Assembly: GCA_018712435.1 (NCBI GenBank)
Contig: DVGZ01000029.1
Span: 1-64,000, forward strand
Direction: 5' to 3'
Source: Candidatus Caccousia avicola
Lineage (GTDB): Bacteria > Bacillota > Clostridia > Oscillospirales > Acutalibacteraceae
Length of the DNA stretch: 64,000 nt
Positions 3,506-55,079 of this stretch are shown one piece after another. The notes beneath the pieces are model-generated. The model made no database searches. It was not told the DNA's origin and saw only the letters and a program-made list of their open reading frames with translations. The translations under genes were made by a program, and so were the position numbers. The stretch's first letter is position 1. The number at the start of each line of letters is the position of its first letter.

Positions 3506-3665
3506 GGGCTTGTTTGGAAAATCATAAACATCGTCTTTTCTCCCCATAGCGGCTGCTTTCTGCGTCAAAATGCTCGGAATCTGACAAGGATTCCCGCGCT
3601 TTTTTCCTGGAAATCACCTCGCTCTGGGAAAAAATCCGGCATTTTCTCTATTTTCAAACAAGCCC
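3506..3665. repeat. MITE-like 160-bp repeat, copy A
   Basis: The element starts GGGCTTGTTTGGAAAAT and ends with the near-exact inverse ATTTTCAAACAAGCCC. A near-identical copy in the opposite orientation is at 10113-10272. Both are 160 bp, AT-rich against a GC-rich genome, and have no ORF. An internal short inverted repeat (GGAATC...GGATTCC) lies near the middle. Features fit a non-autonomous miniature inverted-repeat element; no transposase is present in the window. No clear target duplication is seen at this copy. Confidence 0.75.
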
Positions 3666-10096: not shown

Positions 10097-10112
10097 AAAG
10101 CTCTCTCCTTTA

Positions 10113-10272
10113 GGGGTTGTTTGAAAATAGAGAAAATGCCGGATTTTTTCCCAGAGCGAGGGGCTTTCCAGGAAAAAAGCACAGGAATCCTTTTCGGATT
10201 CCGAGCATTTTTGACGCAGAAAGCAGCCGCTGTTGGGGAAAAAGACGGTGATTATGATTTTTCAAACACCCC
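10113..10272. repeat. MITE-like 160-bp repeat, copy B
   Basis: This is the inverse of copy A at 3506-3665, of the same length and very similar by eye (most positions identical, a few substitutions and one-base shifts). Its ends are GGGGTTGTTTGAAAAT and ATTTTTCAAACACCCC, again inverted repeats. TTA flanks it on both sides (10110-10112 and 10273-10275), a possible 2-3 bp target duplication. The right-hand TTA is the ftsY stop codon, so the element abuts that gene exactly. Confidence 0.75.
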
Positions 10273-11181
10273 TTAGTGCTCAAACAGCGCCTTCGCAAAC
10301 TCGTCCGCGTCAAACGGCTGCAAATCGTCGAGCTGCTCGCCCACGCCGATAAACTTCACCGGGATCTTCAAATCCTCCCGAATCGCAATGACCACACCGC
10401 CTTTGGGCGTGCCGTCCAGCTTGGTCAGGACAATGCCCGTGATATGGGCGGCGTTCTGGAACTCGCGCGCCTGATTGACGGCGTTCTGTCCCGTGGCCGC
10501 GTCGAGCACCAGGAGAACCTCCTTTGCCGCGCCCGGAAGCTCACGGTCAATGATTCGATTGATTTTTTCCAGCTCAGCCATCAGATTTTTCTTGTTGTGC
10601 AGACGGCCCGCCGTATCGCAGATCACCACATCCGCGCCGCGCGCCTTTGCCGCCGAGATCGCGTCAAACACCACGCTGGCCGGGTCGCTGCCCTCGCTCT
10701 GGCGGATCAAATCGCATCCGCTGCGCTCCGCCCAAACCTCCAGCTGCTCAATCGCCGCCGCGCGGAAGGTATCCGCCGCAGCCAGGATCACACGCTTGCC
10801 CTCGTTTTTCAGACGGTAAGCCAGCTTGCCGATGGTCGTGGTTTTTCCCACGCCGTTAACGCCGATCACAAGCACCACGGAGGGCTTTGTGGAAACGTCC
10901 AGCGCTTCGCCGCCGCGCATCATGTCGGCGGTAATCTCCTGGATCAGGCCGTAAATCTCATCCGGATCGCTGATTTTGCGCTCCTTGACCTGACGGCGGC
11001 ATTCCTCGCAGATGCGCTCAGCCGTCGGCACGCCGACATCCCCTAGCACCAGCAGCTCTTCCAGCTCCTCAAACAGCTCGTCGTCAATCTTCTGGAAGGA
11101 ATGCAGCATTTTTTCGATGGAAGTGCTGACATTTTCCCTTGTCTTTTTCAGCCCTTCCTTAATCTTTGCAAAAAGTCCCAT
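10273..11181 (-). CDS. ftsY: Signal recognition particle receptor FtsY
   Basis: A 302-residue SRP-type GTPase that docks ribosome-SRP complexes at the membrane for co-translational insertion. The short N-terminal A-type region (about 1-30) begins MGLFAKIKEGLKKTR, followed by the NG domain. GTPase motifs are GVNGVGKTTT (G1), DTAGRLHNK (G3) and TKLDGTPKGG (G4/G5 area). The start at 11181 was chosen because GGGGAGG precedes it; the longer reading from 11292 runs into the untranslated region. It is downstream of smc, as in many Firmicutes. Its stop codon is exactly at the edge of a MITE-like repeat. Confidence 0.97.
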   Translation of the reverse strand: MGLFAKIKEGLKKTRENVSTSIEKMLHSFQKIDDELFEELEELLVLGDVGVPTAERICEECRRQVKERKISDPDEIYGLIQEITADMMRGGEALDVSTKPSVVLVIGVNGVGKTTTIGKLAYRLKNEGKRVILAAADTFRAAAIEQLEVWAERSGCDLIRQSEGSDPASVVFDAISAAKARGADVVICDTAGRLHNKKNLMAELEKINRIIDRELPGAAKEVLLVLDAATGQNAVNQAREFQNAAHITGIVLTKLDGTPKGGVVIAIREDLKIPVKFIGVGEQLDDLQPFDADEFAKALFEH

Positions 11182-35988: not shown

Positions 35989-36801
35989 TCACAGCGGCAA
36001 AAGCCGGGGCACTCTCTTTTCATAGACGGCGATCTCGGAGAAACCGCAGGCGCGCAGCATCGCGGCCCCTTCCTCCAACCCTGTTCCCACGTCCGCGCCC
36101 CGGTGCGCGTCCGAGCCGATGGTGACCAGTTTGCCGCCCAGCTCCCGGTAGCGCTGCAAATACTCCCGATCGGGAAGCAGCTTTCCGATCTTCTGGCGCA
36201 GGCCGGAGGTGTTGACCTCCAGCGCGCGCCCGGAGCGGATCAGGGTTCGGAAAATATCATCCACAATCCCCGAAAAACGGCGCAGATCCACGGAAACGCC
36301 ATATTCCCCCATCAGATAGCGCAGAGGGTAGGTCAGGTGCGCCAGGGAGTCGAAATCGCCCCAGTCCCGCACCAGCTCCAGCTCCTCCTCAAAATAGCGA
36401 TCCAACAGGGCGCAGGGATCGTCCATCGCCGTATAATCGAGGAAATAAAAGTCCTGCTCTCCTCTTATGGCATGGATGGATCCCAGAACAAAGTCAAACG
36501 CATGGGAGGAAAGAAGCTTTCTGGCCGCTTCCGGATTCTGCATGGGCTGCGCGAGCTCCACTCCGCACAGGATTTGCAGGTCCCCAAAGGCTCCCTGCTG
36601 CGCTTTCGCCGCTGCAAACGAGCCGTCAATCCGCTCTCCATAGGAATCCTTTTCAAATTCGTTGCATTCACAGTGGTCTGTAATCGTCAGATGGGAAATC
36701 CCCTTCTCGGCCGCCGCCGCGCACAGGCTTTCCACCGGCTCCTCGGAATCGGGGGAAAAAAGCGTGTGTGTGTGGCTGTCCGGCAAATTCATGTTCCGCA
36801 T
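35989..36801 (-). CDS. PHP-domain histidinol-phosphatase family protein
   Basis: A 270-residue PHP phosphoesterase. The first metal motif is DSHTHTLFSPDSEEP, followed by LTITDHCECNEF, the Glu in GVELAQPMQN, the His in GSIHAIRG and LAHLTYPLRY, and the C-terminal GSDAHRGADVG. This matches the HisK/HisJ-type histidinol-phosphate phosphatases, which finish histidine synthesis, but closely related proteins have other phosphoesters as substrates and no his genes are near. ATG 36801 and ATG 36792 are both possible; neither has a strong ribosome binding site. It is transcribed away from the ACT gene. Confidence 0.85.
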   Translation of the reverse strand: MRNMNLPDSHTHTLFSPDSEEPVESLCAAAAEKGISHLTITDHCECNEFEKDSYGERIDGSFAAAKAQQGAFGDLQILCGVELAQPMQNPEAARKLLSSHAFDFVLGSIHAIRGEQDFYFLDYTAMDDPCALLDRYFEEELELVRDWGDFDSLAHLTYPLRYLMGEYGVSVDLRRFSGIVDDIFRTLIRSGRALEVNTSGLRQKIGKLLPDREYLQRYRELGGKLVTIGSDAHRGADVGTGLEEGAAMLRACGFSEIAVYEKRVPRLLPL

Positions 36802-54986: not shown

Positions 54987-55005
54987 CGTGCCTACATAGA
55001 ACAAA

Positions 55006-55057
55006 ATAACAGGGCTGTCTGAAGAAAGTTCTTCAGACAGCCCTGTTATCTGTTTTT
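55006..55057. terminator. Bidirectional terminator between GNAT and melA
   Basis: ATAACAGGGCTGTCTGAAG pairs perfectly with CTTCAGACAGCCCTGTTAT over a short loop. T-rich tracts flank both sides (TCTGTTTTTA and, on the other strand, TTTTGT), so it can end both converging genes. Confidence 0.88.
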
Positions 55058-55079
55058 ATGCGGCTTTTCAGCCCTGCTC

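Follow-up and report, generated by a model that had tools for sequence, protein, structure and literature searches.

Two MITEs with IS5-family ends in Candidatus Caccousia avicola and their place in a Clostridia-wide set of elements sharing a hairpin core

MITEs are usually explained by their ends alone, the interior being regarded as under no constraint. Stem-loop-forming MITEs of bacteria include RUP, NEMIS, bcr1, ERIC and Nezha (PMC3733652), as well as QMITE2 and BOX/SPRITE (PMC10969869). The elements described here resemble all of these in being short, non-coding and intergenic, with inverted ends and stable folds. To our knowledge, each of those families has a single set of ends and is confined to one species group; in contrast, the core of the present elements spans the class Clostridia and many types of ends. 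REP palindromes, which are 20-40 bp long and carry a GTAG or CGTC tag that is unpaired at one end (PMC3733652), are likewise high-copy hairpins lying outside genes, but the Clostridia elements, at ~160 or ~277 bp and with terminal inverted repeats (TIRs), fall outside that category in both size and structure. In their ends, their TA target duplication and the presence of an ~850-bp full-length partner with two transposase ORFs, they are closest to the IS5-family insertion sequences (IS) and their MITEs, from which they differ in possessing a central hairpin that is conserved across different ends and absent from the partner IS of Anaeromassilibacillus sp. An200. Insertion into the loops of hairpins or terminators is known for IS1111 elements in attC and for group IIC introns. 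A subset of the 277-bp class is similarly placed in terminator loops; however, this class has other ends and another size, and no protein was found in it.

The window, namely the whole 64,000-nucleotide stretch of contig DVGZ01000029.1 that was analysed, contains two copies of the 160-bp form, with the following features:

3506-3665, minus strand (the strand of the core): MITE copy A, in the gap between two divergently read genes; the site is empty in genomes G001 and G003
3506-3522, plus strand: TIR of copy A, outer end (the right end on the core strand), read from the sequence
3649-3665, minus strand: TIR of copy A at its other end, GGGCTTGTTTGAAAATA on the minus strand, read from the sequence
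3560-3610, minus strand: conserved hairpin core of copy A, with its T-run one T short (covariance model R1, E 1.7e-10)
10113-10272, plus strand: MITE copy B, with the ftsY stop codon on one side and the next minus-strand gene on the other; the site is occupied in G004 (An200) and empty in G001 and G003
10168-10219, plus strand: conserved hairpin core of copy B (covariance model R1, E 5.5e-16)
10110-10112, no strand: left target duplication at copy B, TTA (TA in most full copies), against the empty site CCTTTACTG in G001
10273-10275, no strand: right target duplication at copy B, coinciding with the ftsY stop codon, from the empty-site comparison

As the original prediction had stated, the two copies are of the same length, lie in opposite orientation and match over nearly their full extent (144 of 160 positions, with two one-base gaps). 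At a GC of 0.46 each, they are richer in AT than the window as a whole (0.59), and neither encodes a credible gene, the long ORFs that cross them being spurious. Their inverted ends are present, albeit partly decayed from those of typical full copies (TAGGGCTTGTTTGAAAA...TTTTCAAACAAGCCCTA): without gaps, 14 of 17 positions pair in copy A and 12 of 17 in copy B. The inverted-repeat arms of the A/B pair measure 102 and 60 bp. Both copies fold far more stably than shuffled sequence, with copy B reaching -71.1 kcal/mol as RNA against a shuffle mean of -45.8 (z -6.2). A putative third copy in the window (36639-36668, 30 bp) was rejected as a chance-level match (E 1.26). Elsewhere in the window, an almost perfect inverted repeat of 32 bp, its arms 2 bp apart (54995-55060), is probably an intrinsic terminator.

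The count of two copies turned out to be too low, with the genome carrying ~15 copies or fragments of the 160-bp element (E <= 0.001). Several contigs of this genome stop inside a copy, as is expected when an assembly breaks at repeats. The site of copy B is filled in An200 at 98% identity, and that of copy A holds an internally deleted version of ~60 bp (G004:C140:107625-107680; L036 / L084), whereas G001 and G003 lack an insertion at either site, their flanks joining within a few bases. The short An200 version has lost its centre and retained both ends, and a similar one lies near position 73038 of G000:C126 (L015). Most copies of this type (type I) are flanked by a TA duplication, copy B by a TTA-like one, and the ends of copy A have decayed. 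Both insertions would be older than the divergence of this species from An200 and younger than its divergence from two further members of the genus. These repeats are therefore short, non-coding, multicopy sequences with TIRs, target duplications, occupied and empty sites, and an autonomous element with matching ends. Their mobility as MITEs, the reading originally offered, is well supported; taken alone, the window pair is an ordinary MITE pair with good support.

The autonomous element was recovered by a pattern search in An200 as an inward-facing pair of GGGCTTGTTTGAAAA ends ~850 bp apart, whose 20-bp termini match the MITE ends, which supplies the full-length transposon that had been anticipated. 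It encloses two overlapping ORFs with the IS5-family domains PF13340, PF01609 and NF033580; ORF2 scores 149.6 bits against NF033580 (cut-off 110), and the PF13340 and PF01609 matches also exceed their cut-offs, identifying an IS5-type DDE transposase. A run of seven A residues at the overlap suggests a programmed frameshift. The intact partner is present in the sister species and not in this genome, where the nearest IS5 transposase is 58% identical. A related IS is present in seven copies in G249, with a transposase 76% identical and ends such as TAGGGCTTGTCTGTAAAAT; the G249 MITEs end in TAGGCCTTGTTTGTAAA, and this likeness of IS and MITE ends indicates that the ends follow the transposase. 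Judging from these sequence matches, the MITE is probably mobilised in trans by an IS of the An200 type, whose DDE transposase would bind the ~17-20 bp ends and duplicate TA upon insertion. A comparable search in G514 for a larger element with GGCAACACCGCACAATTC ends yielded no transposon, the ends being mostly paired at a spacing of ~170 bp.

What the original prediction missed was a structured core at the centre of these elements, found class-wide and common to elements with different ends. When the family was searched with the element, many matches were limited to the centre and lay within elements bearing other ends. This core occupies the central ~52 nt and forms a hairpin whose base pairs covary strongly: across 52 diverse aligned cores, 94.4% of the stem pairs are standard, with 41 double changes against 9.6 in shuffles. 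Within the fold, an asymmetric internal loop (RCA / GA) is well conserved, and the CAAGG / ACGCAG flanks are conserved too. When genome samples of the order, class and phylum were searched with covariance model R1, the core turned up in 56 of the 295 genomes from the order and in 49 of the 291 from the class Clostridia, often in many copies each; in the phylum sample it was present in only 3 of 398 genomes, all three from this class and none from outside it. A core pattern scan of named genomes had Oscillospiraceae, Anaerotruncus, Pseudoflavonifractor, Gemmiger, Faecalibacterium and other Clostridia among the matches listed.

Rfam gave no relevant match above the gathering cut-off for the window and 11 further loci, and the viral contigs searched had no match to the core. 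Nine fecal scaffolds of 4-8 kb labelled 'Bacteriophage sp.' have a related core, two of them (L272 and L273; MT838409.1 and MT838915.1) being unannotated and marked unverified; these scaffolds may be bacterial DNA, and we make no claim of phage carriage. Subdoligranulum variabile records deposited as plasmids also carry the core (OY725839.1, OY725877.1 and others; L274, L275), at up to five places per record. A literature search by core sequence and keywords, which is weak evidence given that most subscription journals lay outside its scope, returned no description of these elements, and the Clostridia-wide set is apparently previously undescribed.

To compare their architectures, we delimited 25 representative types with different ends, some of which are interrelated, so that this number does not count independent origins. 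They fall into two size classes. The 11 types of the ~160-bp class form a single long hairpin tipped by the core, with spacers of 54-56 nt to the left end and of 53-56 nt (64-65 nt in two types) to the right end. In the 14 types of the ~277-bp class, most of which have a second arm in the fold, these spacers measure 166-174 nt on the left and 50-57 nt on the right, the lowest of these distances coming from type XVI, which is 268 bp as cut. The second arm bears a C-G-closed tetraloop, mostly GTCA, in 12 of the 277-bp types; its stem covaries too, though the arm sequences were chosen by eye from folds and the count is hence biased towards pairing. The 160-bp types show TA, TNA or four-base YTAR-like duplications (read by eye), which we take to be habits of groups within the IS5 family.

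Taken together, we consider it likely that the two copies are trans-mobilised IS5-type MITEs within a Clostridia-wide set, in which selection has kept an RNA hairpin on the core strand. Under this proposal, members of the set use different TIRs, hence probably different transposases, around one hairpin core at a near-fixed distance from the ends. The core strand would fold as RNA into a long hairpin (in the 277-bp class, a branched structure) in which the conserved hairpin forms a tip, and selection would maintain this fold; the hairpin itself would probably serve the persistence or spread of the element, possibly as a binding site for a host or transposition factor.

The foremost alternative is that these are ordinary, IS-derived parasitic MITEs, with a non-functional core that merely reflects common ancestry and ends that diverged along with their transposases. 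Part of the end diversity is indeed plain divergence, inasmuch as ends within the IS5-like group are related and follow the transposase. However, a neutral core should decay like the arms, and from type to type the core retains a median identity of 0.81 and 0.75 in the two size classes, against 0.51-0.57 outside it, where shuffles give 0.48-0.51; these outer parts are thus near shuffle level in sequence, yet their arms still pair. Further, the distances from core to ends vary by only a few nucleotides, and the covariation of the core along with the strand-biased mismatches of the arms requires selection on the fold. We accordingly regard a functionless core as unlikely.

Those mismatches bear on the molecule in which the selected fold acts. 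On the core strand of 75 non-redundant elements, the arms have 223 G.U against 70 A.C mismatches and 235 A.G against 29 C.T. The G.U excess surpasses what is expected from composition (ratio 1.36; p 5e-11) and also a stricter control in which arms of different elements are paired (p 4e-5), although this cross-element pairing already has a ratio of 1.85, such that shared arm ancestry explains part of the wobble excess. A bias of this kind is not expected if only double-stranded DNA mattered; hence, a single-stranded form of the core strand is probably under selection. The initial suggestion that the copies may bring RNA hairpins is thereby borne out in part, to the extent that one strand appears favoured in a single-stranded fold. 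Its companion suggestion, that they may bring promoters, gained no support from a scan of the copies.

The single-stranded form could instead be DNA, for example a hairpin extruded during replication and seen by a transposase or nuclease. DNA hairpins also tolerate G.T and G.A, which makes the mismatch bias compatible with this idea, and some 277-bp elements insert into the loops of palindromes. Against it, the copies in one closed genome are divided equally between the replication strands (20 versus 20), and the target duplications of the 160-bp types resemble DDE transposase action on duplex DNA. Since a replication-strand bias is absent, RNA is to be preferred over lagging-strand DNA, and we infer that RNA is the active molecule, with single-stranded DNA an improbable substitute. 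The orientation of the core relative to neighbouring genes shows no preference for sense or antisense (17 versus 18), where read-through RNA would predict one.

More doubtful still is the proposal that the core acts as an intrinsic terminator in both directions and so renders insertions harmless. A terminator scan does call terminator-like sites at the core on both strands, and copies are enriched between convergent genes (20 of 62 copies, where such gaps make up about 17% of the total, in a partly redundant sample with simple ORF calling). However, the variants break the T-run or swap in paired G-C (TTTTGG, GCGCTTTC), indicating that pairing rather than the U-run is kept, and invariant internal loops are unnecessary for termination. 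Lastly, a plain segmental duplication of a single 160-bp stretch, for which only the similarity of copies A and B speaks, is refuted by the many copies, the precise empty sites and the matching IS.

Terminators also enter this picture as insertion sites of part of the larger class. Inverted-repeat flanks above the 99% level of swapped flanks occur at 7 of 38 277-bp elements against 1 of 55 160-bp elements, and in the former they look like intrinsic terminators interrupted within the loop. The 277-bp elements at L332, L342, L112, L162, L164 and L108 sit in the loops of such terminator hairpins. As a separate observation on genomic context, L449 (G249:C1:2322001-2334000) has a local GC skew of -0.297, extreme relative to the rest of G249.

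Accordingly, the wider set, with its single structured module held in near-fixed geometry between different ends, deserves attention, and there is a real chance that it is more than a MITE variant. More tentatively, and at less than even odds in our estimation, it could represent a new kind of mobile structured RNA: a hairpin module, accompanied in the 277-bp class by the second tetraloop arm, that is mounted on many unrelated ends and recognised by its fold rather than its sequence by a host- or element-coded factor, with a subset aimed at terminator loops. Across the class Clostridia, it is the middle of these elements that is best conserved, while the ends and arms vary. Should the strand-biased pairing reflect RNA, they would amount to a bacterial analogue of SINE-like elements, in which a structured transcript rides on borrowed transposases, and the conserved hairpin opens the way to a direct search for a protein that binds it.
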